From the NCBI GenBank assembly GCA_029834535.1, contig JAQMWT010000095.1, positions 1-64,000 of the forward strand: a stretch of 64,000 bases of DNA. Direction: 5' to 3'. Below, piece after piece: positions 1-25,193 of this stretch (positions within the stretch are counted from its first letter, which is position 1; every line of letters starts with the position of its first letter). This DNA is from Chrysophaeum taylorii (Eukaryota; Sar; Pelagophyceae; Pelagomonadales; Pelagomonadaceae). The notes beneath the pieces are model-generated. The model was given only the letters and a program-made list of their open reading frames with translations. It did not search any database and was not told where the DNA came from. The position numbers and the translations under genes are program-made.

Positions 1-924
1 TTCAGTTACGTATTGCATTCAATCTGATAAGAGAAACGTCAGCAAAATCGAGGTCTGAAGAACAATAGCGACAAAGTGCCTGGGATGACGTGCGTTAGAC
101 GATGGGTGCCACTGAGAATCGCAGCAGGGCAAGGATAGCGGGAACACAGGCTGGTATATGATGGCAGTGTACCAGACGTCTGATGAGAACGTGGTCTTTG
201 GGCAGATAGGTTGCATGGTGCATGGTGACCAGGTTATGACGATGGTCGGTCGACAGAAGCAAAAACAGGCGTAAACAGGTTTGATGCGAACGTTGGGTGT
301 TTGGGTGTTGTGGCGCGAGCAGTTGCCATGGGCACGACCGCGCCCTGTGCGCGAAGATGGAAGACTTCGGACGCGCCAGCGGTGTAAGGAACGAACACGG
401 GTAGACCAGGCTACTATATGCCAGCCTGCTGTGGCAGATAAGAAAGTGGCCCGTTTTCGCATTCGCAAGAACGAAGTTGCCATATGGGCCAACGTTGGAG
501 GAGCAAGCGGCGAGCTTCGCTCGTCATACTCGAATAGACTGCGGTAGAAGTTGGTGACCGTGGCAAAACGTTGTGGCACGTAAGAACGTTGCAGATAGCT
601 TGCAGATAGCGTCGCAGTGGCACGTAAGAACATTGCAGACAGCGTCGCGGGTGCTGAGCACGGAATTCACGTCGATAGCAAAAACGGATTTTAAAGGTCA
701 GAACAACGGCGAAAAGGCGAGAGTGCGCGAAGGAGAACCACAAACCACACAGCAAAGAAGCGTCTGTCCAGGATCCCGAAGATGAGCGATCCAACCACAT
801 AGGAAGCACGAAAGCTGCGAACGCGAAAAATTGACAGGCACAGCTTAGTTGTGGCGGGTGAAATGCGCGATGGAACGTGAGTCGCTGGTTTTACCAAAAC
901 CGACAAGCACAACGAGGAGTGGAT

Positions 925-1135
925 CAATGAATAGGTGAAAATGCACAACGGGGAGTGGATCGACGAATAGCCGAAAATGCACAACGGGGAGTGGAGCAAC
1001 GACGAGGTGAAAATACAGAACGAGGAGGGGAGCAACGACGAGGTGAAAATACAGAACGAGGAGGGGAGCAACGACGAGGTGAACGTACAGAACGAGGGTG
1101 GATCAACGAATAGCTGAAAATACAGAACGAAGGGC
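925..1135. repeat. 33-bp minisatellite in copia-A (left arm)
   Basis: About six tandem units of roughly 33 bp, each with a core like acagaacgaggaggggagca, followed by gacgaggtgaaaat. Central units are nearly identical and outer units drift. The same array lies at 26,615-26,850 in the other arm. The two arrays differ most in their last units, as expected of a tandem repeat. Confidence 0.85.
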
Positions 1136-1176
1136 TCCTGCGCAATGGGAGCTGAAAACGAAAACGAGGGGCTTCC

Positions 1177-1480
1177 TGAGCCTTGCGAGGCATCCGCCCT
1201 CCCGGCGTAGGTTGGCACCTATTCGCCTCCCGGGCGGGCCGGTTGGCAGCCGGAACGTTCGCAGTGGGACGGGGTATGGCCGGGGGCGCAGACGGAAGGT
1301 TATCGACGAGTTTGTTGTCAGTCACATCGCGGTCTCCTCGTCGCATGGCGACAAGCGATGGTCACTCTCCGCCGACCGACCTTTCGGCGCTCCTCGTCTA
1401 CAGGCCCGTGATTCCGGACTGGCTCCTGTCGGTCCGGCCTGGCTCCCATGCTCGGGAGGTCTGAAGTTAGTTAGTTAGTT
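1177..1480 (+). mobile_element. SINE-like TTAG-tailed element, copy a (5'-truncated)
   Basis: A GC-rich insertion of about 304 bp that ends in a short tandem tail (TTAG)n and is flanked by the direct repeat aggggcttcc (1,167-1,176 and 1,481-1,490). Relative to copies at 43,814-44,179 and 55,492-55,858 it lacks about 55 bp at its 5' end. A repeat tail, 5' truncation and variable target duplications together indicate target-primed reverse transcription, as for SINEs and LINEs. No coding capacity is supported, and I could not place convincing RNA polymerase III A and B boxes. Confidence 0.75.
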
Positions 1481-1779
1481 AGGGGCTTCCGTGGGATGGG
1501 GTTGTTGATGTGCGTGCATCAGACACTCGGCGGTACACACGCTGACTTGGAATTATCTTGATTGGCAGAAAGGTGCAGAGATGTGTAATACGTGGTGGTA
1601 TTAAGAAAAGCGGCGGAGTGGAACTAGAATCAGTCAAGGTTGGAGTAGGCATAGGAGCAGAAAAGGTAGTGTTACTGGTGTTGGTGTTGGTGGGTTGGTG
1701 TTGTTGGGTGTTGTTGGAGTCATTGGGATTGTTGCGCTGTTGAGAAGAACGGCGATGGTGGGTAGGGCGTAGTCGTGGA

Positions 1780-2540
1780 ATAGCTAGGAACTTTGAAACG
1801 TGCGGCAGTCCCTCTTAAAGTGGTCCTTGCAGCCGCCAAAATGACATTGGGTAGTGCGTCGGAATCGAGTAGAGCCAGGTTGGTGGGAAAGGGGAGCGTA
1901 GGGTAGGTCAGTTGGAAGAGTCTGAAGTCGGGGTTGTGGCTGACGACGCGGCGGATAGCGTGGCAGAAGTGGTTGTGCATGCCATCGAAATTGATTGTTG
2001 TTGAGCTTCTCAAGGGTACAACCACAGTCGTCGGTACGAAACGCGAGACGATAAAACAAAGCCAGTAAGGCTTGAAGCACGATGCACGTAGTCAAATGCG
2101 AGGACACACTCGAGGGTGCGTCGGATCAGGTACAATGCCGAGCAACTTGAACTCCGGTGATAGGTACAATGCCGAGCAACTTGAACGCCGGTGATAGGTA
2201 CAATGCCGAGCAACTTGTATACTCCGATGATGAACTTGTTGAGGAAGTTCGCTACGCGATCCCCACGGCCCATGTAGACATCGGTAATGCGCTTGTAAAG
2301 TCGCGTGAAGTTCATGTCGCGGTTTTCATTGATATCAACGTTGTTGCTTGACGCGAAAGTCTTCTGCAGAGCAGCGAGATGCTGAGATGCTAGTCCAAGG
2401 ATCGTTGGTCGAGATAATGTGATCGCCGGTATAGATGATCATGTTCGCGAGACGACGTGGCCATGGGTAAAAAAAAAATGTCGCTCACCGCGGAAGGCAT
2501 CAAGTTTGTGCGAAAGCTTGCTAGCTTGAATTTCGATCGA
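1780..2540 (-). pseudogene. copia-A gag-like region, frameshifted (left arm)
   Basis: Minus-strand coding remnant mirrored at 25,194-25,975. It shows a start region with a run of nine A/T bases near 2,468 that breaks the frame. A helical stretch follows (readable as NFTRLYKRITDVYMGRGD in the other arm). Near its end is a degenerate zinc knuckle with Cys, Cys, His and Cys in the order C-x4-C-x2-H-x4-C. A threefold short repeat (gtgataggtacaatgccgag, 2,120-2,215) interrupts the frame. Position directly after the 5' LTR supports a gag identity. It is not intact. Confidence 0.5.
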
Positions 2541-2650
2541 GGACATGATAGACGACAACGAACCGAACACGTAGCAAAGAACTGAAGCCGATGAGGAGTC
2601 GCCGTGAAGTCAAGCACAGGTTCGATCGAAACGAACGAACACTGCTGCCA

Positions 2651-2746
2651 TGTGACAACTGGAATGGGGCGTTACTCTAGCGATAAGGGAATGACGTAGG
2701 GATACTAGATACGTGGTGCAGGGGTAAGTGTCATAGCTTCCTCACA
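2651..2746 (-). repeat. copia-A LTR (left arm), 96 bp
   Basis: Reverse complement of the LTR at 24,998-25,093. It begins TGTGAGGAAGC and ends TTGTCACA on the minus strand, the usual TG...CA form. The adjoining bases agtaa (2,747-2,751) are the complement of the ttact target duplication of the complete copy. Confidence 0.88.
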
Positions 2747-3570
2747 AGTAAGAACGGTCGAATATGTCGTGCGAGCCGTTGACAGCTTCTACCTGCGACA
2801 ACGAAAATCACGCCGTTATGTCGGGGCCGTTGGCTTTTCACTTTTTATTGAGTCTTCAGGAGCGCGCTCTTGAAGCGAAGAACACAACACGTGTGTGGCC
2901 AGAATGCGCAAGTTGCGAGGAGGGTCCTAGAGCTTGTAGAGCTGGTCGAGGCGGTCCGAGATCCAGTTGTTCATCCCGAACTCGGGGTCAAACGATGAGG
3001 AGAACCGCGGCCGAGCAGAGACACGTTAGGGAGAGGTCCTTTGCCTTTGGCTGCGCGCGCGTTCTCCGACCGGGAGGCCGCGCGAAAGTCGGCGAGGTTT
3101 TGGGGAGTGGCCACAATGCGCAAGTTGTGAGGAGGGTCCTTGAGTTTGTAGAGCTGGTCGATATCCAGTTCACCCCGAACTCCTTTCCTCGAGCTTTGTA
3201 GAAAATCTGATTCAGCTTGACGTCATAAGTCTTGGAGAGAGAGAGATTCTGACGTTGTAGAGCATATTTCAAAATCAGGATCAGCACCCTCTGGTCCTAT
3301 TCCCTGCTTCTCCGAAGGACTGCTGCGCCGAGCGCGGTCGTGCGAGGTGGGAACACGTCGCCGACCCTCTCGCCTTGGGCTACGACGCGCGCCGGGGCTC
3401 ATCGAGACCAGCGGCACTCGTCTGAAAGCCGTCGCGAAAATCCGTCCAAACCCTAGCTCGGCACGTTTGAGGCCGCCCTGCCCGAACGCCGAGGGCCTTT
3501 AAGGAATACTCAAAGCCACGTCGCCGGGAGCTTCTCCCGGGTCTGTCGCCGGCGGTGTTCCGTATAGGCT
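2747..3570. other. Linker X between copia-A and Gypsy-1 gag (left arm)
   Basis: About 820 bp without a recognised gene, mirrored at 24,180-24,997. It is not the Gypsy-1 LTR: nothing in it matches 14,972-15,263. On the minus strand it holds two related segments about 240 bp apart that could encode the peptide DQLYKL followed by DPP-NLRI. On that strand a polyadenylation-like AATAAA sits near 2,849-2,854. It may be the decayed 3' part of another element or the 5' leader of Gypsy-1. I cannot decide which. Confidence 0.5.
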
Positions 3571-3655
3571 GCCCATCGTGACCCGCTACACCTGCTCAAG
3601 CACGTGCCACGCCGCGTTCGTTCGCTCTCGACAGAAAGGACCCGCTGGTGAAGGC

Positions 3656-3838
3656 AGTACTGGCCACCGGCACGCGCCGGCAAGTCTGGTCGGATTGGCG
3701 CCTAATGAAGGCCCTTCTCGCACGCGACCGGTCGAAGAACCTCCGACGTACTGGCCACCGGCACGCGCCGGCAAGTCTGGTCGGATTGGCGCCTAATGAA
3801 GGCCCTTATTGCACGCGACCGGTCGAAGAACCTCCGAC
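3656..3838 (+). repeat. 91-bp tandem duplication at the start of Gypsy-1 gag
   Basis: A unit of about 91 bp beginning tactggccaccggcacgcgc occurs twice in tandem, with one or two differences. Because 91 is not a multiple of three, the duplication shifts the frame. The first unit reads ...MKALLARDRSKNL and the second restarts as MKALIARDRSKNL. Mirrored at 23,934-24,085 in the right arm, so it predates the arm duplication. Confidence 0.85.
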
Positions 3839-4963
3839 GCACGAGGATCGACTCCCTGAATTCGGCGCTTGGACCGCGCCTGGAATCTGGCGAATACATC
3901 GACAACACGAATGGCGTCTACCGGCGCCGCTACTTTCTGAGCAAGGAGTGGCGCTGTGCCTGTGTCATCTTGCTGGAGGGAGACGCTGCCTTGGCCGACC
4001 GACCGAATTCCGTTTCCGAAGGCTACGGACGAGACGTTTTGGGCCACCGATAGGCGAGAACGAGCCCGCAGCCCTTCGCGCGAGCCAGCGCTTGCGATTC
4101 TGCCGGCTCAAGCGTCCGCCCCGGCAGTCCCGGTCGTGCAGAGCACCGACACCGGCCGGGCTCGAAGCCCGTCGCCGACGCCGTCGTCCGGGAGCAAGCG
4201 ACGTGTCCAACACGGCCGAAGCCACGCTACGCCACCTCGCCAGAAGGGTCGAACGAGAGGCCAGGAAGATGACGGCGAATACCGCGACAGCGACGAGATG
4301 AACGCGGAGTTGAGTTCGGAGGAGCTGCAAAAACAGCTCCGTGATTATGAAGCTTTGGTGAAGCTGCAACGCCGGACAGTCAACCGCCTGTATTGCGAGC
4401 TGGACGAGAAAGAGGAAAAGATCACTGCCCAGCAAGAAGAAATCCGTCGCGTACAGGCCGAACTTGATGCTGTTCGACTTTCGTACCAAAGCACCGGTGC
4501 CGGAGAAGAAGATGATGACGCGGCGGAGCTGACTCCCCAGCGTCGATTAGAGCTTCTCAGACCACTTATGGCTGCGCGCGAAAAGCTTCCGCGAGCACGA
4601 AATCGGCGACGCGACCTCCTCACCGACTTCGCATCGAGACTCCCGGCGCACGAGCATTCGGCTTTGATGACGATGTTGCCGGGCGAAGCAGCCAAAGAGC
4701 GGTTTGTTGGGCGGTGCAGTCGCGAGTTTCAAGAATTCAACGCAAAAGCCTCTTTCCGCCATGGTGACGCTCTCGAGGTCATTTTGGATGGAGAGGGCTT
4801 GATCAAGGGCGATGTCGGTGTTGCATCCACACTCGAGCATCTGAAAAATCCGGGTGGTGGCGTCGAGGACGGTGAGTCGGCACTGTATCAAGTCATGGCG
4901 GCGTGTCTCTTCTCGAAAAAGCTCCGTCGACGTGCTGCGATATGCTCGAGAGAAACTTGCTAA
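3796..4963 (+). pseudogene. Gypsy-1 first gag-region ORF, frameshifted
   Basis: In the right arm this is one 389-codon frame (22,777-23,946). Here a 2-bp loss near 3,981 splits it into 3,796-4,053 and a frame ending at 4,963. Residues about 90-150 are Ser/Pro/Arg-rich. A predicted coiled coil follows, rich in Glu, Gln and Lys heptads (around 4,320-4,480), then a basic segment. A coiled coil ahead of a nucleocapsid-type protein is compatible with a capsid or assembly role. No family was recognised. It probably continues through a frameshift into the frame at 4,854-5,420. Confidence 0.55.
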
Positions 4964-5420
4964 AGGCGAACAGTTCCGGACCAACCACCGAATTGCTGAG
5001 TCTGAGACTCTCTGGCCAACGAAAAAGGGGGCTTTCTACTTTTATCTTCCCTTGTCTGGATCCGAGCTCCAAGAATGGGTTGAGGACCGAGAGCGTCGAA
5101 TGGAGTTACGAATCCTCGTCTTAGCGAGCAACATGGTTCATTCTTCTACTAGCTCAATACGGATTCTGCCATTAGCGTCGTTGACAACTCTGAGCCTCGG
5201 TTGGATTGGCGGGTTGACGCAGTGCGGCTTGGACTGTGCCAGTCGCATGGGCCTCACCGCGTCGCGTACGAAGAAGGATGCCATGCTTGGCGTAATTGCT
5301 GCCCGCTACGAGGAAGCACGACATGCCAAGTTGAAGTACAGCCCGGACGGGCAATGTGCCTTACAGACGATTGTGCTTCTCACGGACAACTACGTCAATT
5401 GCAATGGCAGGCATTCCTAA
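4854..5420 (+). pseudogene. Gypsy-1 gag-region ORF, middle segment
   Basis: A 188-codon frame that overlaps the preceding ORF by about 110 nt and the following one by about 220 nt. The useful reading probably enters near 4,925 and leaves near 5,405, where the sense continues in the +1-shifted frame of 5,201-8,182. It contains hydrophobic and Cys-bearing stretches (GLTQCGLDCASRMGL) but no motif I can assign. The overlaps look like 1-nt indels in an originally continuous gene. The same breaks occur in the right arm, so they predate the duplication or reflect a shared error. Confidence 0.5.
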
Positions 5421-8182
5421 AGTACATGGTGGAGCTCACAAACCAGTCCATCACCATGAGCAACCTCGCGTTCGCCGTCCAGATGAAGCCAGGCGCGCCA
5501 GTTTTGAGGACCGACCCAGCGCGCCCACCCGCTTACCCGCCGACGTTTTACAAGAACAAGGTCCTCCTCCTTTTCTGGAAGAACCGCGAAGAACTTGCCC
5601 CTAGGAATTCCACCGGTGTGCCGGACTACGACGAGATTGAGTTTGTGACCCGCGAAGAGATTCCAGGCAGCGGCTCGCCTGGCTACGGCTCGGTCACCAA
5701 GGGTGTCGTGCTGACGTCGCTTCCTGGGTGCAAATCGTCCCGACCTGACCACCTTCGCGACAAAAATATCCCGTTCTTCGAGCGTATTATGCGAGTGTCT
5801 GGATTCCCCGAGAACCGCGATTACTTTGTCTTGGTCGACGCCGAGCCCTATCTCAACTTCCAAAAGTTAAACAATGACGACCCGGAGCGCGTCCGCAACA
5901 TCATTCTCGGGCTCGCGGTGTTCCACATTAGCCTCCATGGGCAGAAGCTCAGCTTGACCGACCCCCACAACTTCGTCAACTACATCTACCCCTTCCTCGT
6001 TGAAACCCTGAACTACCGCGCCAACGCCATGAAGAAGACCACCGCAAAATTCCGTGCTTCGGCCAATCACCACCACCAAGCCGGGCACCTAGAAGCAGCA
6101 AACCAGCGCCTCAACGCGGAAGAGGGCGAGGAGGAGGGCCAGGAGGAGGGCGGGGAGAACGGCAAATACGAAGAGGGAGAAGTGCATATTGATGGCAACC
6201 CCTTCGAGGTCGACTGCCGGGGTGGCGGCGCCGGCGCCGGCGCCGGCGCGGAGTTGACCACCGGCGACGTCGAGGACATGTATTTCGAAGCAACGCCGAA
6301 GAAGGAGGGCGAGTCTTGGGTTGATATCCATCGACGTTCCCGTCAACGCTGTATAGCCCGTAGCCTCCTTCTGCAGCGACTTGAGGTAAGTCAGGACCGA
6401 AGACTCGCCCTCCTTCTTCGGCGTGGTGGCCTGCGTGATGTTCCGCACCTGGTGGAAGGCTTCCTCCGGTCGAGGCGCGGGTCGGCAGGCTTGGCGGAGC
6501 TGCTGGAGGAGGCTACGGCCTATACAGCGTTGACGGGAACGTCGATGGATAGCATCGAGATGATTCACCAAATGATCGCCGGACTGGCATCGACGAAGCT
6601 GCAGCAAGAGATTCTTATGGCGCGATGCGATCAGCCGAATCAGTACAACACCTTCGCTGAGGTACAAAGCCTGATCCTCCGACACGAGATCCAGTTCAAC
6701 GCGTGGCAGAAGGCGCACCCTGGTAAGACCACCAATCCGCCGCCACGCGACCCGCGCGACCGCAAGAAACCCGGCGCATACGCAACGCAACAGGAAGAGC
6801 CAGAGGTAGACGATGATCCGAGGCCCAGTATGCGAAACAAGGGCGCATGGATGCAGAAGATGTGCGATTGCGGAAACTACAAGATCGACCATACGCGAAA
6901 TGCGGGTGGTTCCCTTCGATGCCCGCGCCCGAACGCGTATAAGCAAGCAATGAAAGCGCGGCGACGGCAAGGACAAGAACCCATCCCTTACGGACCCTGG
7001 AAGAGAGAACAGAAAGCAGTACGACCCAACGGCGACCGACGACCGCCCGCGAACGCGAAGGCCACCGCCTCGCCGGGTGCTGGAACCGTGCAGGTCAACC
7101 AGGTCGAAGCGATCGTCGAGCGCATGCTCGCAGCGCGAAACTCCTCGAGCTCGAGTACGCAATCCTCGATGGATTACGCGGGGTCTTTCTTTGGGCCTCA
7201 ATCGAGGGACGGAGCCGCCGGGTGCTCCATCACCGACGCCACGCCCCTCGGGTCGGCCAGCAGCACCGACGGCGAGTTTTTTGGAGCACCGCGGCCGGTC
7301 TCCGTGGCCCCAGTGACACCACCGAGCGAACCGCCGCCGAAGCCGAGCGTGATGACCGCACCGGCCGACTCGACGTTCGCCTCCCCGACCGCTCTCGACG
7401 TGGTCCCGGAGGACGAGCTCGACAAAATGCAAGCAGAGATCGCAATAGCACAGGCAAAGCTCACCTCGCTAGGAGCCCCGCTCTTGCACGAGGAAAATGC
7501 CGCCCCCCCCGAAGCGGACGTCGATGCGGAGCGAACGGTCGACCCGCCCTCGCTCACCCCCCAGATGCCCGACGCCGATCAGCCAGATCCCGGGGAGAAC
7601 GCGCTATCGCTTCTGGTCGAGTCGAGCCTCCGTAACGTCGCCGACCTCGAGCGGAGACTGCACGAGTCGGACGCAACATCTTCGGTCGCCAGCGACACCT
7701 CCGAAACTTCGAGTTCGCACGCCCAAGAGGATGTTGCCAGTCGAATCAGCGGCGCCACCGCGCACGTCCCGCCCGAGTCGGACTCGGACGTCTCCGACCT
7801 CATCGAGGACACGTCCGACAGCGACGACGACTCCGACTCGAGCACGGACGCGACCGATGAGCACCCGTGCGAATCCGACAGTGATGGGGACCGCGACGAC
7901 GACTCCGACCCCGACGCGAACCGCACGGGATCACCGGAGGAAAATTCGCACGCCGATGACGAACTCCCCGACCTCATTGACGATGACACCGATTCGGACA
8001 GCGAAAGTTCGGACGAACGCGAAAGTCAACCCGGAGAATTGTTCCAGGCCAATATTCAGTCATCCGCACGGACCCGAAACCGCCACAACAATAAGAGATG
8101 CCCTTCTCCAAGCTTTTGCGAACCCGCGCCGACAAAACCCCGCGGATGCGGTCGGCTACGCGTCCGACCGGAACGACCATGA
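5201..8182 (+). CDS. gag: Gypsy-1 gag-like protein with zinc-knuckle-like motif and acidic C-terminus
   Basis: A 993-codon frame whose N-terminal about 70 residues are probably out-of-frame read-through; sense likely begins near 5,405. Residues about 75-340 form a globular region of unknown family. A Glu-rich stretch and an Ala/Gly repeat made of ggcgcc units (6,224-6,250) follow. Residues about 365-445 are scrambled by an inner inversion. A gag-like segment then precedes a Cys/His cluster (CDCGNYKIDH...C, around 6,866-6,930) that resembles a nucleocapsid finger without the exact CX2CX4HX4C spacing. The last 250 residues are very acidic (Asp/Ser/Glu). Position ahead of protease and RT supports Gag. 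Confidence 0.6.
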   Translation: MDWRVDAVRLGLCQSHGPHRVAYEEGCHAWRNCCPLRGSTTCQVEVQPGRAMCLTDDCASHGQLRQLQWQAFLKYMVELTNQSITMSNLAFAVQMKPGAPVLRTDPARPPAYPPTFYKNKVLLLFWKNREELAPRNSTGVPDYDEIEFVTREEIPGSGSPGYGSVTKGVVLTSLPGCKSSRPDHLRDKNIPFFERIMRVSGFPENRDYFVLVDAEPYLNFQKLNNDDPERVRNIILGLAVFHISLHGQKLSLTDPHNFVNYIYPFLVETLNYRANAMKKTTAKFRASANHHHQAGHLEAANQRLNAEEGEEEGQEEGGENGKYEEGEVHIDGNPFEVDCRGGGAGAGAGAELTTGDVEDMYFEATPKKEGESWVDIHRRSRQRCIARSLLLQRLEVSQDRRLALLLRRGGLRDVPHLVEGFLRSRRGSAGLAELLEEATAYTALTGTSMDSIEMIHQMIAGLASTKLQQEILMARCDQPNQYNTFAEVQSLILRHEIQFNAWQKAHPGKTTNPPPRDPRDRKKPGAYATQQEEPEVDDDPRPSMRNKGAWMQKMCDCGNYKIDHTRNAGGSLRCPRPNAYKQAMKARRRQGQEPIPYGPWKREQKAVRPNGDRRPPANAKATASPGAGTVQVNQVEAIVERMLAARNSSSSSTQSSMDYAGSFFGPQSRDGAAGCSITDATPLGSASSTDGEFFGAPRPVSVAPVTPPSEPPPKPSVMTAPADSTFASPTALDVVPEDELDKMQAEIAIAQAKLTSLGAPLLHEENAAPPEADVDAERTVDPPSLTPQMPDADQPDPGENALSLLVESSLRNVADLERRLHESDATSSVASDTSETSSSHAQEDVASRISGATAHVPPESDSDVSDLIEDTSDSDDDSDSSTDATDEHPCESDSDGDRDDDSDPDANRTGSPEENSHADDELPDLIDDDTDSDSESSDERESQPGELFQANIQSSARTRNRHNNKRCPSPSFCEPAPTKPRGCGRLRVRPERP
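6294..6555. repeat. Small inverted repeat inside Gypsy-1 gag
   Basis: The segment acgccgaagaaggagggcga (6,294 on) returns as reverse complement near 6,397-6,424. Positions about 6,327-6,373 return as reverse complement at about 6,510-6,555. The simplest reading is a local inversion with partial duplication that replaced about 80 codons of gag with their antisense. The same structure is present in the right arm (21,240-21,502), so it arose before the large duplication. Confidence 0.8.
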
Positions 8183-8331
8183 CGCCGCCGGCGGCACAAC
8201 CGACAACGACATCATCCCCGATTCAACGTCGAGGGCGACGCCGCACTCTCCCCAAGGGGGTACCCGCCGCGGACACGGCCACGATATTGGCAGCGGAAAC
8301 AGCGAGTCGCCACCAGTTGAGGAACCCGCCA

Positions 8332-8870
8332 TGGAACCGATTACGCCGGAACCGGAAGGATCGGACGAAGCAGCCGAAACCGACAGGGATCCCTCGCGCG
8401 GAGCTCGAGAAGAGACAAGCCTCGAGGAAGTTCCCGGCTCGATAACACCCCGCATGCGGCTAAGAAGCGCCAGACTGAGACTTCCGCGCCGAGTGTTGGG
8501 GATATGGACGAGAGTCCAGCAACTCTGGAACAAAAAGAGCCCAGAGCGCACCGAATCCCGGACTCGAGAGCGCGAAGAAAGAGGCCGGCAGTTGCAGGGG
8601 AGAATCCATGAGCTTCCCGCCGACCGTGAACGCACCGACAGAACTGGTGGTCGAAAGCCCGCCGTCTCGTCGCGGGACGCGCGCACGTATCGATGCCGAT
8701 GGCAGGGACAGAGGACGAAGCAATGTGTATGCACTCATCGTTCGCCTCCATCAACGCCGAAACGATCGACAGGGACCTGCGCGTCCTATACTGCTTGGAA
8801 GCCGGCAGCCTAACGTTCATGCCCATCCATCCATGTATTCGACAAGACGGGCAAATCATCGTATGCCACG
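8332..8870 (+). pseudogene. Gypsy-1 gag C-terminus and gag-protease junction, frameshifted
   Basis: The right-arm counterpart (18,662-19,429, minus) starts MEPITPEPEG and stays open into INAETIDRDLRVLYCLEAG. Here the same peptide is split between frames, with the last part readable from 8,693 (MPMAGTEDEAM). The segment ending LEAGSLTFMPIH aligns by eye with LDPGTLTFIVGH of Gypsy-2 (39,460-39,918). It should be the start of the protease domain, before its active-site loop. A 1-nt shift near 8,840 separates it from the next ORF. Confidence 0.55.
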
Positions 8871-11027
8871 GTGATTGGGGTGGACGGAATGGCCGACGTC
8901 ACCTATATCTGTCGCGACCTCGCGCGCCTAATGAGGAAGCGAGGCATGTTACTGGACAGCGGCAAGCTGCCTTTCGAGCGCACGCTCTTCGGATCGGGAA
9001 AGAACACGACCTCGATTTCAGAGTGGATCGCCCTGCGAACGTCCGTCTCGGACGAAATGGCCGTGCCGGTAGTCGCCATCGTGGCAGACACCAATAAACA
9101 GTTTCTGCTGGGAGCCCGCGACATTCGAGCCTTGGGCGCTGTGGTGGACTACCCCCGAGACCGAATTTCCTTCTCGCGAACCCAAACAGTCTTCCAGATG
9201 ATGAAGTTACCGTACGCGAAAGAGATTGTTCGGTCACCCGCCATTCTCGATCGGGCAGCTTACGAAGCACACCCCGTCGTAGCGCCAATTTACGGTTTCC
9301 GGGGGCAAGCGCTGGCGCAGAGTCGGAGTCAAGGTGGCGATAGAGCTCTTCTTCCACCCCTAGTCACGGCGGAGGATCTCCTCTCACCGCCTCCTCAGCG
9401 GGCGTCGGCCGCCATCACCTTAGCCGAGGACCCATCTATGCCGAGCAACGACCCAAAAACGTCCGCGCCCGAGATCCGAGCGTTCGCAACCGGCTCCCAG
9501 CGCATCGACCCCGGTCGAACCCACAACATCCCGGTCAAGCTGAGCCAAGCGCTGAAGCCCGGAGAAGCCTTCGTCGCCACCGCGCCGAGCGTAGAGCACC
9601 TCGGCGTCGTCGCCGGAACCTGGTCGACACATGACCGCTCCGACCCAACCGCGGCCACGGTGGCCATGTCGTCGATGGACGACACGCCGATGTCGATCCT
9701 CCCGGGTCAAGAGCTTGCACGGGGGGAAATCGTCAACTGCCAAGAAGAAGTTCAGGTGACAACCCCGTGGCCAAGCGCCGACCCGGGAAACTCGCACGAA
9801 AGAGAGCACGAGGGCACGGCCTCCTTCACGGTCTCGGTCACCAGTTATCCAACTCCAGACCCCGGAGAAACAGACGGCCAAGCACTTCGAACGTCGTCAA
9901 TCAAGCCGCGCCTGCAAGCCCCACAGACGCAAGAACCGCCGAAGTCTCGAACCGCGGAACAAGCGACCATCGACAAGCACCAGGCGCTCTCCTGGATCCC
10001 GGAGAACGTGACGCCCGTCGTAATGTTCTTCGACGGGATTGGAGGGGGCACCCAGGATATCTACCGGAGCAATGAATGGTTTGGAGCCGCGTACAAGGTC
10101 GTGCTCGTCATCGACGCATCCGACACCGCCAAAGAAATCCATGAGAGAAATTTCCCAGGAATACCCGTCGTCCAGCACACCCTCGGCGGTCGGTACGACA
10201 GGGTCCTTTATCTGGTCAAAGGTTACCTGCATGAAAGCCTATGGCCGACGGCCCTTTTCGTTGGCACACCCCCATGCGTCGATTCCGCCTTGTGCACCCT
10301 TACGACCCGCGACGCCGGAAAAGGAGTCTCCGCGACCAATTGGACCATCAAGCTCTTCCAGCTCTCCGGAGTAGGACGCTGGATCATCGAGCAGGAACCT
10401 TCCATCCGCTCGAAAATCACGCTGAGGCAAGGTTTCATTACCGTCGTCGACTTATGGACGACGACGCCAGACTTCATGAGCACCCGTCGGCGCATGATCA
10501 TCACGAGCTGGCCTCTTCAGCTCATCCGACGTCCCAAAACGTGCGGCACTATTCAAGGTACCTTCGCCGCCAAACTCGGATTCGACCCTGCGCAGCCTCT
10601 CATCCAGCGCAACAACTTTGGATGCACACGAGAGGCCACAGCACCGATATACACCATCACGCGGAACGGAGTGCGAACGGGACCCACGCCTTCGGACACC
10701 AAAGCACTCAAACTAGAGATGCTCGCGGAGGCTCTCACAATGCCGAGCGATCTCGCATGGGGTAACCTCACAGTCACGGACCGAATGACGCATCTAGCGG
10801 CCGTGATACCCCCCGCCTTCCATGGCGTACATAGTCCTCGACGCACACAACGCGCTCCCGCCCACGCTCCGCAACATCGGAATCGCGCGCCCGAACGTAG
10901 TCGTACCCACCGACAAACCCTCCGAAACATACATCATCGAGCGCGCCCCCTCCGACCGCGCCCGCGTGGAAGCCACCGCACCCGAGCCCCGAAGCGCCCT
11001 TGTGAACGTTTCGACTCGCGCAGTTGA
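8871..11027 (+). CDS. Gypsy-1 protease plus embedded C5 DNA methyltransferase
   Basis: 718 codons. Residues 1-110 are a retropepsin-like domain with VDGMADVTYIC at the active-site loop and LLGARDIRALGA as the flap-distal ILG-type motif. The usual D-S/T-G is replaced by D-G-M. Residues about 200-300 are a beta-rich domain conserved in Gypsy-2. Residues about 380-650 show the ordered motifs of a cytosine-C5 methyltransferase: I FFDGIGGG (386-393), II IDAS, IV GTPPC with catalytic Cys469, VI EQEP (507-510), VIII TRRRMII (538-544), then PIYTITRN and a C-terminal AVIPP. The family transfers methyl from S-adenosylmethionine to cytosine in DNA. An extra C near 10,811-10,816, compared with the 48-kb copy, shifts the last about 70 codons out of frame. 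Confidence 0.82.
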   Translation: MIGVDGMADVTYICRDLARLMRKRGMLLDSGKLPFERTLFGSGKNTTSISEWIALRTSVSDEMAVPVVAIVADTNKQFLLGARDIRALGAVVDYPRDRISFSRTQTVFQMMKLPYAKEIVRSPAILDRAAYEAHPVVAPIYGFRGQALAQSRSQGGDRALLPPLVTAEDLLSPPPQRASAAITLAEDPSMPSNDPKTSAPEIRAFATGSQRIDPGRTHNIPVKLSQALKPGEAFVATAPSVEHLGVVAGTWSTHDRSDPTAATVAMSSMDDTPMSILPGQELARGEIVNCQEEVQVTTPWPSADPGNSHEREHEGTASFTVSVTSYPTPDPGETDGQALRTSSIKPRLQAPQTQEPPKSRTAEQATIDKHQALSWIPENVTPVVMFFDGIGGGTQDIYRSNEWFGAAYKVVLVIDASDTAKEIHERNFPGIPVVQHTLGGRYDRVLYLVKGYLHESLWPTALFVGTPPCVDSALCTLTTRDAGKGVSATNWTIKLFQLSGVGRWIIEQEPSIRSKITLRQGFITVVDLWTTTPDFMSTRRRMIITSWPLQLIRRPKTCGTIQGTFAAKLGFDPAQPLIQRNNFGCTREATAPIYTITRNGVRTGPTPSDTKALKLEMLAEALTMPSDLAWGNLTVTDRMTHLAAVIPPAFHGVHSPRRTQRAPAHAPQHRNRAPERSRTHRQTLRNIHHRARPLRPRPRGSHRTRAPKRPCERFDSRS

Positions 11028-11350
11028 CTGGGTACCGAACCGTGACCTCCAGGATAAAGCGAAATAGCAACCGCCGGACCTTCCTTAAACCCCTCCGAAG
11101 CCCGCTGCATCAGGGACGATGCACTCATCTTCACAAGGGGGTACCCGCGCGAGCAAAAACGATGGAACCTCGAAAGGCGAACCAAGGGACGGAAAACCAA
11201 CCAAGGAACCAACGAGCGACAAGAACAAAGAGCCCGCCCGGTTCAAATACGAGGAACGGTTTGACGTGCCATGGAAAAACGCACCCCGGGACGAAGACGG
11301 CGCACCGCTACCGCAACAGCCCAACCATCTGAAAGGGAACGAGGCCATGG
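11028..11350 (+). pseudogene. Gypsy-1 linker between methyltransferase and RT
   Basis: The sense frame continues past the preceding ORF through in-frame stops at 11,065-11,067 (TAG, Trp in the 48-kb copy) and about 11,089. It then runs from MHSSSQGG (11,119) through a Lys/Glu-rich linker to RFDVPWKNAPRDEDGAPLP. The motif DVPWK-APRD is conserved in Gypsy-2 and, as DVPWADAPHDE, in Gypsy-3. That marks a conserved junction just before RT. At about 11,353 one base is missing to join it to the RT frame. The same 4-C run is present in the 48-kb copy. Confidence 0.65.
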
Positions 11351-14300
11351 TCACCCCACGAAAGAAGAAGTGGACAAGGCCGTCGATGAGCTAGGCACCC
11401 CGAACAACCCTCACCTGGACGAAGATGCCAAACTCATGTTGGCGCACTGCGTTCGATACTCCTGGGCGTTCTTCGATCCCATCATGAGACCCGTGGATTC
11501 TCGACCGGTATCCCCCCAATTCAAAGACGCGGACCCAAAACCCATCAAGATGTCGCCATACCGCCTGACTCCCGCCAAGATCGAGTGTCTTCGACAGCAG
11601 ATCGCCGAATGGTGCAGAGACGGAGTCATCAGACCTGCCGAATCCCCCTGGGGGTTCCCGGTCCTGATGCTCCCGAAGAAAGGTGCAGAGCTCGGAACAT
11701 CCAACGCCTTCCGCGCGGCCGTTGACTTACGCCAGCTCAACGACCAGTTGGTAGACGACAGTTGGCCGAACGTGCCGCAGGAGGACGCCCTAGCGTTCCT
11801 GGCCGGAAGAAGGTTCCGGACCTCAATCGACATTCGACTGGGATACCACAACCTTCGGCTGGACTCGCAAGCACAGGACGCCGTGACGATGGTCAGCCCG
11901 CTCGGAGCCCACAGCTTTCTCCGACTGCCCTTGGGAGTGAAGACCGCAGGCGCCCTCTTCTGCAGGCAGATGACAGCCGACCTCGCGAAATGGATGTACC
12001 GAGACCTGGTCAGCTTCATCGACGACATCATCATGGGGACGAATAACGTCCACGATCACTTGCAGTGCCTGATCGAAGTCCTCTCCCATTTGGCCTCCAA
12101 AGGATACAGTGGCCGGACAGCCAAATTCCACTTGCTCCAAGACGAAATCGAGTTCCTTGGTCATATCTCAACCCCCGACGGATTGAAGCCTAACCCCAAA
12201 ACGTCGGAAGCACTACGAAAGATGCCGATTCCTGGGACGCTGCCGAAAACCTCCCCGAAGACGCAAATCCGTTCGTTCATCGGGATGAGCAACTACTGCC
12301 GGAGATACATCAAGGACTATTCCAAGATCGCGGAGCCCTTGCGACGCCTGACGTTGGAGGAAGTGCCGTTCAAATGGACGCCAGAGTGCCAAAAGGCGTG
12401 GGACACCATCATCGACGCACTAGCGGATTCCCGCGGAGCGTACCATCCGGATTACGACCTCCCCTTCCACATCAGGACCGATGCCGCCAAAGACGGTCTC
12501 GGAGCTTTTCTCTTCCAAATCGTCGAAGTCCAGGACGAAAAGGGTCACACCTGTCGCGAAGAACGAGTTATCGAGTACTGGAGCCGAGCGGTGCCCAAAG
12601 AGATGCGTAATTACGAGCCGCGCCGTCTGGAGCTCCTGGGAGTGATCCTGTCCCTCGAACACTTCCGCCCGTTCATCGAAGGCCACCGAACCGTCCTCGA
12701 AACCGACCACCGGAATCTGACCTTCCTCCGGAACACGACCCACTCCACCGGGCAGCTCGCCCGATGGGCAATGCGGCTGGCCAATTTCGACCCCGAACTC
12801 GGTTATAAGCCCGGCAAGTCCCCGGGAATGAGCATCCCCGACTGCCTCTCGAGGAATCCGATCGACCATGTCATCGAGACCGACGAATTCGGAGAGCCGC
12901 TCAATCACGCGTACTTGGTCGTGCAAGAGCTGCCTCTCCCCGACGGCGAAGCCGGGTGTCACGTCATCCTCAACTTGATGCAGACCGAGATACCCGAGGA
13001 CCTCGAGGACCCTCCGGATGATCCGATGGGTTACGCCGCATCGCACGCCACGCAACATCGCAAGAAAGTGGCCCTGCGCTCGCGCAAGCCACCGCTGCAA
13101 ACCGACGTCGGGCTACAGAAGGAATTCATCGACAAAATCCCTGACAACATCTCGCTGGAAGAGATTGCTGAAGCCCAGAAGAACGACCCTCTATGCGATA
13201 GTATCCGCGCCGGGATGAACCAAAGCGATTTTCGCCGCCGATTCGGAGCCAACGTCCGCTATGATGTATGGAAGGGAGTTTTGTACCGGTACGACATCGA
13301 CCTCCGCCCTGTGATCGTCGCGCCCGCAACCTTGCGAGAGAGGATCATGCGCATCCACCACAGTTCGCCCCTGGGAGGACATCTCGAACGCGATAGCACC
13401 GTCAACGCGATCGCCGAACGGTTCTGGTGGCCGCGCATGTCCCACCAGGTTGGAGTCTTCGTCAACGAATGCCTAGTCTGCCAGAAATCGCGAACCCCGG
13501 AGCCAAAGCGAAAAGGGATGCTCCAGCAGCCGATATACGACGGAGATGGCGCCGTTCTATGCATGGACCTTTTCGGACCCCTGCCGAGCGCCGGCAAGTC
13601 CACGTACATCCTCGTGATGTTCGACCCGTTCTCGCACTATCTGGTCTTGGACGTCATAAACACCAAGCACGCCGACGCCATCTTAGAATCCTTCGTGCGA
13701 AACATCCTCCTTCAGGGATTTCTCCCGCGTATGATCCTCACCGACAATGGTCGCGAGTTCGTCAACCGGCTGCTACGGGCCTTCCTCGTGGAGTTCGACG
13801 TCCGGTACAGGACGACGATACCGTACCACGCCCAAGCGAACCCCGCGGAGCGAGTCAATCGGTTCCTCAAGGCATTCCTCCGAGCCTGCCTCGAGGGTCG
13901 CAGCATCACCGACTGGCCGGCCTTCGTCCGGTACGTGTCGTTCTGCTACAACCGAAAGTTCATCCCCGGCACGCAAATCTCCCCGTTCATGTTGCGCCTG
14001 AACCGGCAGCCGATGTTGCCCACGGACTACACCTTGTTGGTTCAGCCCGATCCTGTTCTGCCGCGACCCCGATCCGACGCGCTACTGGAGATCAAGCAAA
14101 ACCTCCAGTATTACTCGAAGGTCGTCGCGGAAGCACATGAGCAGGCCAAGAAGACGCAGAAGCTCGCGTACGACGCCGATCACATCGACGTCGAATACAA
14201 CGTAAACTCGCACGTGCTGCTGTACATTCCGCAGTCCCAAAACAAGTTGCGACCGGAGTGGCGCGGCCCCTTTCTCATCACCGAGCGCCTCTCACCCGTC

Positions 14301-14942
14301 TCGTACAAGATCCGATCGGTTTACGGAGCCGCCGAAGAGCGAATCGTATCGGTCCAACAGATCACCCCAGTATCGATGCCTCCCGCACTCGACGCCACGA
14401 TCCGTCGTCCGAGCCCCGGATTCCGCGACGAGTACGAGCGCGGCAAGCTCGTCATTTTCCGCATCCCGTCGGCCCGAGACCCCGATTGGCGCAAGAAGCT
14501 TTACGTCACCGAGGTTTTCGAGAATTATGATGATCTTCAAGACCGAGTCGCTCTCCACTTTTACTCCGACCTGGGCCCGCACGACGACCCATCGTATTTC
14601 GACCCAACCTCACCGCTTGAAGGTCGCACGCTGAGCCCGGAATTCAAGACGGCACTCGGTCGCAGCTTCACTCGCACCGAGAAATTGACACCTCAGTGCA
14701 CCCCTTGCGTAACCGACTTCGCCCCGGACGAGATCGACGTCCTGGTTCCCCGGTTCAAGCTCCAGGGTAAATCAATTCCTCCCCCGATCGTCCAGCGAGT
14801 CAAAGATATCCTCGCGCATCGCGCGCGCCAAGAACAAGAACAACTCCAAGCTCAACAACGCGCTCATCTGACGCGCACTCAAGTCCCGTCCCCCGACGGT
14901 CCGCGCCGAAACTTGCTTCAATCGCACCACCGCCGTCGCTGA
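11271..14942 (+). CDS. pol: Gypsy-1 pol: reverse transcriptase, RNase H, integrase
   Basis: 1,223 codons and uninterrupted; sense starts about residue 27 (HPTKEEVDKAVDELG), before which the frame is read-through. RT covers about residues 90-330, with the polymerase box FIDD (249-252). RNase H covers about 385-510, with acidic residues in FHIRTDAAKDGLGAFLF and TDHRNLTFL. A histidine/cysteine zinc-binding region precedes CLVCQ. The integrase core carries D766, D825 and E860, close to D,D-35-E spacing. A GPF-type module (EWRGPFLITERLSPVSYKI) follows. The last about 190 residues hold a module conserved in Gypsy-2 (RVALHFYSDLGPHDD, TPCVTDFAPDEIDVL). It copies element RNA to DNA and inserts it in the genome. 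This is the best preserved pol in the window. Confidence 0.95.
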   Translation: MEKRTPGRRRRTATATAQPSERERGHGHPTKEEVDKAVDELGTPNNPHLDEDAKLMLAHCVRYSWAFFDPIMRPVDSRPVSPQFKDADPKPIKMSPYRLTPAKIECLRQQIAEWCRDGVIRPAESPWGFPVLMLPKKGAELGTSNAFRAAVDLRQLNDQLVDDSWPNVPQEDALAFLAGRRFRTSIDIRLGYHNLRLDSQAQDAVTMVSPLGAHSFLRLPLGVKTAGALFCRQMTADLAKWMYRDLVSFIDDIIMGTNNVHDHLQCLIEVLSHLASKGYSGRTAKFHLLQDEIEFLGHISTPDGLKPNPKTSEALRKMPIPGTLPKTSPKTQIRSFIGMSNYCRRYIKDYSKIAEPLRRLTLEEVPFKWTPECQKAWDTIIDALADSRGAYHPDYDLPFHIRTDAAKDGLGAFLFQIVEVQDEKGHTCREERVIEYWSRAVPKEMRNYEPRRLELLGVILSLEHFRPFIEGHRTVLETDHRNLTFLRNTTHSTGQLARWAMRLANFDPELGYKPGKSPGMSIPDCLSRNPIDHVIETDEFGEPLNHAYLVVQELPLPDGEAGCHVILNLMQTEIPEDLEDPPDDPMGYAASHATQHRKKVALRSRKPPLQTDVGLQKEFIDKIPDNISLEEIAEAQKNDPLCDSIRAGMNQSDFRRRFGANVRYDVWKGVLYRYDIDLRPVIVAPATLRERIMRIHHSSPLGGHLERDSTVNAIAERFWWPRMSHQVGVFVNECLVCQKSRTPEPKRKGMLQQPIYDGDGAVLCMDLFGPLPSAGKSTYILVMFDPFSHYLVLDVINTKHADAILESFVRNILLQGFLPRMILTDNGREFVNRLLRAFLVEFDVRYRTTIPYHAQANPAERVNRFLKAFLRACLEGRSITDWPAFVRYVSFCYNRKFIPGTQISPFMLRLNRQPMLPTDYTLLVQPDPVLPRPRSDALLEIKQNLQYYSKVVAEAHEQAKKTQKLAYDADHIDVEYNVNSHVLLYIPQSQNKLRPEWRGPFLITERLSPVSYKIRSVYGAAEERIVSVQQITPVSMPPALDATIRRPSPGFRDEYERGKLVIFRIPSARDPDWRKKLYVTEVFENYDDLQDRVALHFYSDLGPHDDPSYFDPTSPLEGRTLSPEFKTALGRSFTRTEKLTPQCTPCVTDFAPDEIDVLVPRFKLQGKSIPPPIVQRVKDILAHRARQEQEQLQAQQRAHLTRTQVPSPDGPRRNLLQSHHRRR

Positions 14943-18200: not shown

Positions 18201-18515
18201 CATCGGCGTGTCATCCCATCGTGGCTATGGCATCAGTGTCGACCAGGCTGCACGACGGGTGCTACCGGCGGCTGGCGACGAACTCTCCGGGCGCGCTTTG
18301 TCAGCTTGACAACAGGTTCGACCGAGGTCGCTGCGCTGAGCACGAGCCTTTCAGGCATTTTAGTCGTTGGTGATCACGGCGATGACGGCCGACCCGCGAG
18401 AGACGACGAGAGAGATCCTCGACAGGGGTGAGCTCGCACCTTGACTCCGACTCTGCGCCAGCGCTGCCGAAAGCAAAGCAAATTAACGACGGGGTGTGCT
18501 TCGTGCCCGATCGAG
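15264..18515 (-). pseudogene. Heavily deleted antisense Gypsy-1 pol/methyltransferase copy
   Basis: Short blocks throughout align by eye, in order, with the minus-strand third copy. Examples are 15,264-15,440 with about 45,187-45,400; 15,630-15,910 with 46,600-46,925; 16,920 with 48,259; 17,590 with 49,105; and 18,300 with 50,020. About 5.0 kb is compressed into 3.25 kb by very many small deletions plus substitutions, including most of the integrase. The methyltransferase part (about 17,230-17,900) is present only as fragments. No frame is usable. It starts exactly after the LTR terminus at 15,263 and passes abruptly into near-perfect sequence at about 18,515. Confidence 0.8.
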
Positions 18516-18661
18516 AATGGCGGGTGACCGAACAATCTCTTTCGCGTACGGTAACTTCATCATCTGGAAGACTGTTTGGGTTCGCGAGAAGGAAATTCGG
18601 TCTCGGGTAGTCCACCACAGCGCCCAAGGCTCGAATGTCGCGGGCTCCCAGCAGAAACTGT

Positions 18662-19429
18662 TTATTGGTGTCTGCCACGATGGCGACTACCGGCACGGCC
18701 ATTTCGTCCGAGACGGACGTTCGCAGGGCGATCCACTCTGAAATCGAGGTCGTGTTCTTTCCCGATCCGAAGAGCGTGCGCTCGAAAGGCAGCTTGCCGC
18801 TGTCCAGTAACATGCCTCGCTTCCTCATTAGGCGCGCGAGGTCGCGACAGATATAGGTGACGTCGGCCATTCCGTCCACCCCAATCACCGTGGCATACGA
18901 TGATTTGCCCGTCTTGTCGAATACATGGATGGATGGGCATGAACGTTAGGCTGCCGGCTTCCAAGCAGTATAGGACGCGCAGGTCCCTGTCGATCGTTTC
19001 GGCGTTGATGGAGGCGAACGATGAGTGCATACACATTGCTTCGTCCTCTGTCCCTGCCATCGGCATCGATACGTGCGCGCGTCCCGCGACGAGACGGCGG
19101 GCTTTCGACCACCAGTTCTGTCGGTGCGTTCGCGGGTCGGCGGGAAGCTCATGGATTCTCCGCTGCAAATGCCGGCCTCTTTCTTCGCGCTCTCGAGTTC
19201 GGGATTCGGTGCGCTCTGGGCTCTTTTTGTTCCAGAGTTGCTGGACTCTCGTCCATATCCGCAACACTCGGCGCGGAAGCCTCAATCTGGCGCTTCTTAG
19301 CTGCATGCGGGGTGTTTTCGAGCCGGGAACTTCCTCGAGGCTTGTCTCTTCTCGAGCTCCGCGCGAGGGATCCCTGTCGGTTTCGGCTGCTTCGTCCGAT
19401 CCTTCCGGTTCCGGCGTAATCGGTTCCAT
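18662..19429 (-). pseudogene. Gypsy-1 gag C-terminus (right arm)
   Basis: A 255-codon frame beginning MEPITPEPEGSDEAAE. It is more open than the left-arm counterpart and shows that gag continues in this frame to LEAGSLTFMPIHPC before a 1-nt shift into the protease frame. An Arg-rich central part follows an acidic start. The remaining minus-strand frame 18,301-18,888 holds the protease start (VDGMADVTYIC), which then runs into the deleted copy. Confidence 0.6.
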
Positions 19430-22400: not shown

Positions 22401-22539
22401 GTACTTCAACTTGGCATGTCGTGCTTCCTCGTAGCGGGCAGCAATTACGCCAAGCATGGCATCCTTCTTCGTACGCGACGCGGTGAGGCCCATGCGACTG
22501 GCACAGTCCAAGCCGCACTGCGTCAACCCGCCAATCCAA
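19297..22539 (-). CDS. gag: Gypsy-1 gag-like protein (right arm)
   Basis: A 1,080-codon counterpart of 5,201-8,182. The first about 610 codons match the left arm, including the scrambled segment (inner inversion) and the Cys/His cluster. After that, 1-nt indels relative to the left arm switch frames several times through the Pro/Ser-rich and acidic C-terminal region. The left arm is therefore the better guide to the C-terminus, and this arm the better guide to the N-terminal ORF. Confidence 0.55.
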   Translation of the reverse strand: MDWRVDAVRLGLCQSHGPHRVAYEEGCHAWRNCCPLRGSTTCQVEVQPGRAMCLTDDCASHGQLRQLQWQAFLKYMVELTNQSITMSNLAFAVQMKPGAPVLRTDPARPPAYPPTFYKNKVLLLFWKNREELAPRNSTGVPDYDEIEFVTREEIPGSGSPGYGSVTKGVVLTSLPGCKSSRPDHLRDKNIPFFERIMRVSGFPENRDYFVLVDAEPYLNFQKLNNDDPERVRNIILGLAVFHISLHGQKLSLTDPHNFVNYIYPFLVETLNYRANAMKKTTAKFRASANHHHQAGHLEAANQRLNAEEGEEEGQEEGGENGKYEEGEVHIDGNPFEVDCRGGGAGAGAGAELTTGDVEDMYFEATPKKEGESWVDIHRRSRQRCIARSLLLQRLEVSQDRRLALLLRRGGLRDVPHLVEGFLRSRRGSAGLAELLEEATAYTALTGTSMDSIEMIHQMIAGLASTKLQQEILMARCDQPNQYNTFAEVQSLILRHEIQFNAWQKAHPGKTTNPPPRDPRDRKKPGAYATQQEEPEVDDDPRPSMRNKGAWMQKMCDCGNYKIDHTRNAGGSLRCPRPNAYKQAMKARRRQGQEPSPYGPWKREQKAVRPNGDRRPPANAKATAAGCWNRAGQPGRSDRRAHARSAKLLELEYAILDGLRGVFLWASIEGRSRRVLHHRRHAPRVGQQHRRRVFWSTAAGLRGPSDTTERTAAEAERDDRTGRLDVRLPTALDVVPEDELDKMQAEIAIAQAKLTSLGARSCTRKMPPPKRTSMRSERSTRPRSPPRCPTPISQIPGRTRYRFWSSRASVTSPTSSGDCTSRTQHLRSPATPETSSSHAQEDVASRISGATAHVPPESDSDVSDLIEDTSDSDDDSDSSTDATDEHPCESDSDRDRDDDSDPDANRTGSPEANSHADDELPDLIDDDTASDSESSDERESQPGELFPALFSHPHGPETATTIRDALLQANPRRQNPRMRSATRPTGTTMTPPAAQPTTTSSPIQRRGRRRTLPGVPAADTATILAAETASRHQLRNPPWNRLRRNRKDRTKQPKPTGIPRAELEKRQASRKFPARKHPACS

Positions 22540-22886
22540 CCGAGGCTCAGAGTTGTCAACGACGCTAATGGCAGAATCCGTATTGAGCTAGTAGAAGAAT
22601 GAACCATGTTGCTCGCTAAGACGAGGATTCGTAACTCCATTCGACGCTCTCGGTCCTCAACCCATTCTTGGAGCTCGGATCCAGACAAGGGAAGATAAAA
22701 GTAGAAAGCCCCCTTTTTCGTTGGCCAGAGAGTCTCAGACTCAGCAATTCGGTGGTTGGTCCGGAACTGTTCGCCTTTAGCAAGTTTCTCTCGAGCATAT
22801 CGCAGCACGTCGACGGAGCTTTTTCGAGAAGAGACACGCCGCCATGACTTGATACAGTGCCGACTCACCGTCCTCGACGCCACCAC
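22320..22886 (-). pseudogene. Gypsy-1 gag-region ORF, middle segment (right arm)
   Basis: Exact counterpart of 4,854-5,420, with the same overlapping-frame breaks at both ends. Because both arms share these breaks, the lesions are older than the inverted duplication, or both arms derive from one sequenced molecule. Confidence 0.5.
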
Positions 22887-23946: not shown

Positions 23947-24179
23947 TAGGCGCCAATCCGACCAGACTTGCCGGCGCGTGCCGGTGGCCAGTACGTCGGA
24001 GGTTCTTCGACCGGTCGCGTGCGAGAAGGGCCTTCATTAGGCGCCAATCCGACCAGACTTGCCGGCGCGTGCCGGTGGCCAGTACTGCCTTCACCAGCGG
24101 GTCCTTTCTGTCGAGAGCGAACGAACGCGGCGTGGCACGTGCTTGAGCAGGTGTAGCGGGTCACGATGGGCAGCCTATA

Positions 24180-25093: not shown

Positions 25094-25193
25094 TGGCAGC
25101 AGTGTTCGTTCGTTTCGATCGAACCTGTGCTTGACTTCACGGCGACTCCTCATCGGCTTCAGTTCTTTGCTACGTGTTCGGTTCGTTGTCGTC

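Follow-up and report, generated by a model that had tools for sequence, protein, structure and literature searches.

Methyltransferase domains related to C5-cytosine enzymes in Ty3/gypsy and Ty1/copia-type retrotransposons of the alga Chrysophaeum taylorii, and their possible action on newly made element copies

The stretch of Chrysophaeum taylorii DNA analysed here (64,000 nucleotides, hereafter the window) contains two copies of a Ty3/gypsy element that carries a C5-cytosine-methyltransferase (MT) domain upstream of reverse transcriptase (RT) (Table 1). The MT domain of copy 1 is about 275 residues long and shows, from the N- to the C-terminus, motif I (FFDGIGGG), motif II (VIDAS), motif IV (GTPPC), motif VI (IIEQE), motif VIII (TRRRM), and a motif IX/X region that extends up to AVIPP. 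All of the motifs quoted in the original prediction are present, in order, in the translation of this open frame, and the second copy that it had reported on the opposite strand was recovered as well. The predicted position upstream of RT in a Ty3/gypsy element was likewise borne out, as the next open frame (11271–14942) matches the Pfam models RVT_1 (residues 136–299), RNase H (394–506, matched by two models), Integrase_H2C2 (685–742), and rve (760–853). The claim that the MT lies between protease and RT holds on the RT side by Pfam, whereas the protease side lacks profile support and is a by-eye reading of motifs in the translation (FLLGARDIRALGAVVDYP in the window). Similarly, an MT in one open frame directly upstream of RT describes some relatives of the element, but in the window the Pol frame breaks just 3' of the MT, and copy 1 is degraded, with its upstream part, MT, and RT spread over separate ORFs. 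The upstream ORF 5201–8182 gave no match in a Pfam search.

Table 1. Features of the two element copies in the window.
Feature	Position	Strand	Basis
ORFs 5' of the MT, presumed Gag side, broken frames	5201–8813 (ORFs 5201–8182 and 7497–8813)	+	Position only
Open frame with protease-like region and MT	8871–11027	+	ORF of 718 aa
Protease-like region (FLLGARDIRALGAVVDYPRDRI)	8871–9170	+	Motif only, by-eye reading
MT domain, copy 1	9993–10817	+	Translation; profile and fold matches of relatives
Pol part, copy 1	ORF 11271–14942	+	Pfam
Copy 2 of the element, MT and Pol side; in opposite orientation to copy 1; carries inserts	44180–50678	-	Self-comparison of the window
MT domain, copy 2; motif I FFGGIGGG	48744–49568 (ORF 48474–49805)	-	97% identical to MT of copy 1

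Long terminal repeats (LTRs) were looked for around both window copies and none were found; a repeat at 1174–1482 and 43813–44178 was considered as an LTR and rejected, being an extra insert in copy 2 relative to copy 1. This repeat (300–360 bp, with terminal TTAG units) also occurs at 26264–26578 and 55488–55858, is absent from copy 1, and resembles a short non-autonomous element. On both sides of the MT-RT-integrase part of copy 1 (21–9340 and 18434–27740) lies an inverted duplication of 9.3 kb with 99.0% identity, which is either a real arrangement of elements or an assembly artefact. The 3' (integrase) end of copy 2 contains a 219-bp tandem duplication (44805–45246).

The gypsy-borne MT belongs to a large family within its own genome, where at least 139 matches were found (139 of 870 candidates were scored, and all 139 matched). 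Among these, 23 close matches with 82–100% identity to the window MT constitute family A, and 116 matches with 46–50% identity constitute family B and its branch B2. Near-identical matches at nearly equal positions were observed on contigs C25 and C521 (L026 and L027) and likewise on C10 and C297, which suggests duplicated haplotypes in the assembly, and the copy counts may therefore be somewhat inflated. An RT was located downstream on the same strand as the MT in 42 of 44 records (the exceptions being L019 and L030); the 44 records correspond to 41 distinct places, with L043, L044, and L050 duplicating L018, L014, and L012. The family B element L041 holds MT, RT, RNase H, and integrase in a single open frame of 3057 codons and is flanked by direct repeats (LTRs) of 341 bp that are 98.2% identical, start with TGTGGCG, and end with CGCCACA, with no clear target-site duplication at the LTR flanks. 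Another element, L042, has a frame of 2393 codons with PF00145 at residues 1431–1486 (25.3 bits) and RVT_1 at 1986–2147; it enters an LTR-like stretch soon 3' of the RT, and Pfam found no RNase H or integrase in it. Its protease-like motifs, LDTGS and FLLGGRDIRVLGAIVDFP, were read by eye, and a Pfam search for the aspartic protease region gave no match, leaving the motif reading. The order RT, RNase H, integrase, which is that of Ty3/gypsy elements, was confirmed by Pfam in the window copy and in relatives, and the MT is shown to sit within the Pol of a Ty3/gypsy LTR retrotransposon, between a protease-like region and the RT. The size of this family, together with the unrelated copia-type MT of the same genome described below, goes beyond the original prediction.

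The window MT alone has no Pfam, PHROG, or relevant PDB match, and its identity is established because relatives in the same genome match C5-methyltransferase profiles. In an alignment of 19 rows (14 from family B or B2 and five from family A), 14 rows matched PF00145 at a counting threshold of E ≤ 10, the best of them with 3.1e-6 and 27.3 bits against a cut-off of 22; phrog_116, annotated as 'DNA methyltransferase', was matched by 18 rows at E ≤ 1 (best 5.6e-8). The displayed matches span motifs I–III. The PF00145 search proposed with the original prediction thus fails for the window copy but succeeds for family B, which is about 50% identical to the window MT and exceeds the cut-off both as a domain (27.3 bits) and in the whole L042 protein, while the whole L041 protein stays below it (18.4 bits). 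Comparison of the 19-row profile with 22 DNMT2-type proteins in hhalign gave a probability of 97.3%, a score of 83.1, and an E-value of 2e-11 over motifs I to IV, whereas 100 column shuffles reached maxima of 4.2% and a score of 25.7; the reference set for this class consisted of DNMT2-type proteins only, and it might overlook a DNA enzyme that is closer. Against the PDB, the same profile matched human DNMT2 weakly (E 0.12–0.14). The C-terminal part (columns 101–275) alone scored 0.3% in hhalign, without significance. Homology to C5 methyltransferases is therefore firm, and significant, in motifs I–IV only, and this part of the proposed motif assignment stands; motifs VI, VIII, IX, and X fit in order by eye and have conserved residues, and they rest on that reading and conservation because the C-terminal columns scored so low.

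Several sequence details bear on the class of the enzyme. The F-x-G-x-G of motif I and the Pro-Cys nucleophile of motif IV are present, the surroundings of motif IV read PPCV as against PPCQP in DNMT2, motif VI has Gln instead of Asn after the Glu in the alignment, and no CFT segment of the DNMT2 type was seen there. The segment from motif VIII to the motif IX region is short, as had been predicted, at about 50 residues by eye on the alignment (previously put at about 40). Two AlphaFold2 models built from alignments of the algal copies only were poor (pLDDT 42.6 and 39.9; pTM 0.39 and 0.46), yet all 10 and all 20 of their PDB fold matches at E ≤ 0.001 were C5-methyltransferase entries, namely DNMT2 and DNMT3A/B for the first model and DNMT1, MET1, DNMT2, and a prophage enzyme for the second. 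The TM-scores were about 0.3, so only the core is matched, and since the two model alignments overlap, the two fold searches are not independent tests. The structural check that had been suggested thus yields C5-methyltransferase entries only at this threshold, from models of low confidence. Searches further afield returned no homologue of the window MT at E ≤ 1e-3 among 2546 candidates (about 395–1256 aa in length) drawn from 5.8 billion proteins, and none of 42 pattern matches in viral contigs or of 74 in prokaryote genomes was confirmed with the gypsy-MT profile. Judged by these comparisons, the C5 METHYLTRANSFERASE identity of the gypsy-borne MT domain is very probable. Chance motifs in a polyprotein linker, an idea that draws on the lack of any match for the window copy alone and of any homologue in the protein search within its candidate length limits, are contradicted by the profile, shuffle, and fold evidence and are scarcely credible.

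Conservation within the genome indicates that the domain has been maintained by selection. All ten residues tested are covered by 37 of 41 copies, and 30 of these 37 retain the full set. The Cys of motif IV is conserved in 38 of 39 copies, the Glu of motif VI in 40 of 41, and both Arg residues of motif VIII (Arg-x-Arg) in 41 of 41. For the MT, dN/dS amounts to 0.19 among 11 copies of B, most of which were picked because their open frames are long, to 0.087 among seven copies of B2, and to 0.22–0.23 in A, whether taken over 11 open copies or over all 14 that headed the list; in the comparison of B with B2 it is about 0.05, with dS saturated. Three copies have an open frame across both domains, and their pN/pS is 0.182 for the MT, 0.305 for the linker, and 0.123 for RT with RNase H. 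Purifying selection on the gypsy MT is shown by the catalytic residues and by dN/dS values of 0.05–0.23.

A second MT family in the same genome is carried by a Ty1/copia-type element. Genome-wide, at least 57 PF00145 matches were found (123 of 474 candidates scored), two of which are cellular by reading (C634 and C621), and nine of the other 55 that were examined (L003–L008 and L045–L047) all belong to one repeat family with LPCQ and EN[VA] motifs. In L045, a single ORF of 1952 codons contains PF00145 (residues 349–475, 32.1 bits), a weak rve (1016–1110; 17.2 bits, below the cut-off of 32.6), and RVT_2 (1686–1933, 1.6e-38), and this order, with integrase before an RVT_2-type RT, is that of Ty1/copia. 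The element is bounded by LTR-like repeats of about 200 bp that are 89% identical, and CTCAC on both outer flanks represents a target-site duplication (one copy). The copia-type MT matches PF00145 at 5.1e-9 and phrog_116 in five of five rows, and in profile-profile comparison it matches DNMT2-type proteins at 74% (E 2.8e-5) and the gypsy MT at 0.2%. These comparisons show a C5 methyltransferase upstream of integrase and RT that is not recognisably related to the gypsy MT. At least 138 copia-type MT matches were found (129 of 638 candidates scored), some of them being pieces of one element, and because there are 1670 candidates for a copia-type RT (150 scored), many copia elements may lack an MT. 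None of 1120 candidates (about 168–535 aa) from 5.8 billion proteins was a homologue of the copia-type MT at E ≤ 1e-3.

The published genome of C. taylorii, a marine pelagophyte, comprises 71 Mbp with a chloroplast of 104 kbp; its sequencing included native Nanopore runs and one whole-genome-amplified library, and neither 'repeat' nor 'transpos' occurs in the main text of the genome paper (PMC10366177). Of the two cellular genes, the one on C621 is of DNMT5 type, with DNA_methylase and SNF2 domains, and the one on C634 is of DNMT2 type; the host DNMT2-type gene (L049) is 100% identical to CTAYLR_008533 of C. taylorii. Contig C697 carries two Photo_RC genes, read as psbA and psbD. The DNMT5-type gene is the sole recognised DNA-methylation gene of the host among the candidates scored, an exon-by-exon search that may have missed others, and its product matches the gypsy MT at 0.3% in profile-profile comparison. 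A BAH search gave no match, nor any in its controls, and so carries no information on DNMT1.

The CpG content of the elements was examined for a methylation footprint. The observed/expected CpG ratio is 1.18–1.22 in gypsy-MT copies, 1.04 in copia-MT copies, and 1.43 and 1.32 at two host loci. The reading of CpG decay relies on four-fold sites rather than on whole-sequence rates, and CpG transitions at these sites show no consistent rise in families A, B, and B2. For example, C/T rates in family A are 0.041 before G, 0.038 before A, 0.055 before C, and 0.142 before T, and G/A rates are 0.206 after C, 0.229 after G, and 0.214 after T, while the rates in B and B2 are mixed. Whole-sequence rates are also mixed, with CG above CA and CC but below CT in the MT families, an excess at CT that may come from codon effects, and with CG lowest in a small non-MT repeat. 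Because CpG observed/expected is about 1.2 and four-fold CpG transitions are not consistently raised, the MT elements bear no clear trace of a lasting CG mark, and the minimal specificity, such as CG, proposed in the original prediction is conjectural. The elements may go unmethylated, may carry the mark only briefly, or may not be mutated by it, and the enzyme may act on sites other than CG or on a substrate other than DNA.

Cytosine methylation is the chemistry that hosts use to silence retrotransposons. Taken as a whole, our reading is that gypsy Pol-borne and copia-type C5 methyltransferases methylate cytosines of new cDNA (or of nuclear DNA) and play a seed-mark role together with the host DNMT5-type gene, and we give it about even odds (a probability of roughly 0.5). 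The MT would be produced within Gag-Pol, would be packaged in the particle, and would methylate cytosines of newly copied cDNA, or of nuclear DNA, no later than integration. Its place beside the RT in Pol suggests both the packaging and the action on cDNA, and de Mendoza et al. argue in a similar way for their elements (PMC5890265). DNMT5 is the maintenance enzyme of Cryptococcus, where de novo activity is lacking (PMC10538959), and an element-borne MT could for that reason provide the seed, which could then persist through the maintenance-class host enzyme. A persisting mark could make a new copy resemble host DNA or could set its chromatin state. As for the parts, the gypsy MT is probably active on DNA, and methylation of cDNA as its main function is tentative, falling a little short of an even chance. 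The far-reaching version, in which two unrelated C5 methyltransferases captured by two LTR superfamilies supply the de novo step and each insertion brings a heritable methyl mark, appears quite unlikely.

DNMT2 is a tRNA enzyme, and the gypsy MT could by analogy be an RNA C5 methyltransferase that acts on packaged genomic RNA or on the tRNA primer. The best profile match in motifs I–IV is to DNMT2-type proteins, human DNMT2 accounts for the weak PDB sequence matches, the target-recognition segment is short, and a clear CpG-decay footprint is missing, all of which would suit an RNA target; however, the reference profile contained DNMT2-type proteins only and could pass over a closer DNA enzyme, the fold matches also include DNMT3 and DNMT1, and the neighbourhood of motif IV departs from that of DNMT2, so we hold this reading to be unlikely. 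A non-catalytic domain with a helper role in assembly or reverse transcription, binding SAM, nucleic acid, or a partner, would accommodate the divergent C-terminal half and the Gln after the motif VI Glu, but the retention of Cys, Glu, and Arg-x-Arg in nearly all of 41 copies under purifying selection makes it improbable. Defence of the cell against DNA viruses has been proposed in print for transposon-borne methylases (PMC6338049), and the host is an alga; nothing in the sequences favours it, however, and the conservation is accounted for by selection acting on the element itself, which leaves it very improbable that the enzyme is kept for that purpose.

The reading of the MT as an element-borne C5 methyltransferase with a probable DNA target has precedents, and the link drawn in the original prediction to the retrotransposon-borne DNMTs of de Mendoza et al. 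(2018) is correct (PMC5890265). MT-bearing retrotransposons have been shown for dinoflagellates and one charophyte (PMC5890265). In KnitGypsy-Dnmt3 of the charophyte Klebsormidium nitens, as in C. taylorii, an intronless C5 methyltransferase under purifying selection lies in a gypsy Pol ORF; its enzyme is DNMT3-related, its repeats are arranged in a DIRS-like manner, and its copies are few (PMC5890265), whereas the C. taylorii MT matches DNMT2-type proteins in motifs I–IV (the class that the reference set covered), has at least 139 matches, and resides in a stramenopile, and L041 (one complete copy examined) has plain direct LTRs. The Ka/Ks of KnitGypsy-Dnmt3 is below 0.2 (PMC5890265), and the values of B (0.19) and B2 (0.087) are too, with A slightly above (0.22–0.23). 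The Klebsormidium gypsy enzyme showed no activity in yeast, and neither did the LINE enzyme, results considered inconclusive by the authors, and the DIRS-borne enzymes methylate CG in yeast (PMC5890265). Similarly, SymbioDIRS-Dnmt3 and SymbioLINE-Dnmt of Symbiodinium are numerous intronless MT-bearing retrotransposons in an algal host with DNMT5 genes (PMC5890265), but they are DIRS and LINE elements, and those of C. taylorii are LTR elements of the gypsy and copia types. Compared with DNMT2 (TRDMT1) and other cellular C5 methyltransferases, the gypsy MT shares motifs I–IV by profile and the fold core by search, and differs in its much shorter target-recognition segment, its place in a polyprotein, and the CFT segment, which was not seen in it. 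Among stramenopiles, the transposon Sola1-1_Ec32 of Ectocarpus also has a methyltransferase, but this is a predicted N4-cytosine or N6-adenine enzyme encoded by a separate gene of a DNA transposon (PMC12477816). Stramenopiles are listed as one of the groups whose Ty3/gypsy and DIRS elements encode DAM or DCM, the relevant passages giving no example (PMC6338049), and some DNMT3s have been placed in 'LTR Copia and DIRS' elements with citation of de Mendoza et al., who wrote Gypsy (PMC12344493). The literature searched, most subscription journals and Repbase being outside its scope, yielded no description of pelagophyte LTR elements that carry an MT. Gypsy elements with a DNMT are thus already known from Klebsormidium; new are the lineage, the different MT, and the presence in two LTR superfamilies at once.

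With a further lineage, two enzymes in two LTR superfamilies, and a high copy number, the capture of methyltransferases by retrotransposons looks recurrent and selected rather than accidental. The presence of a different MT in each of two unrelated kinds of element suggests that the elements mark DNA or RNA chemically during their own copying. The 71 Mb host genome with long-read data makes a tractable system in which to ask whether such a mark hides, silences, or targets new copies, and C. taylorii is also a place to ask how a host with a maintenance-type enzyme gains new methylation.

Other repeats were noted in the window. Related repeats of about 1 kb are clustered at 36758–43020 and 56500–57378, partly in tandem with a spacing of about 1.27 kb. 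Two tandem units of 253 bp occur at 31682–32243, with 43 bp at 32202–32243 that share 86% identity with the beginning of the family B LTR.
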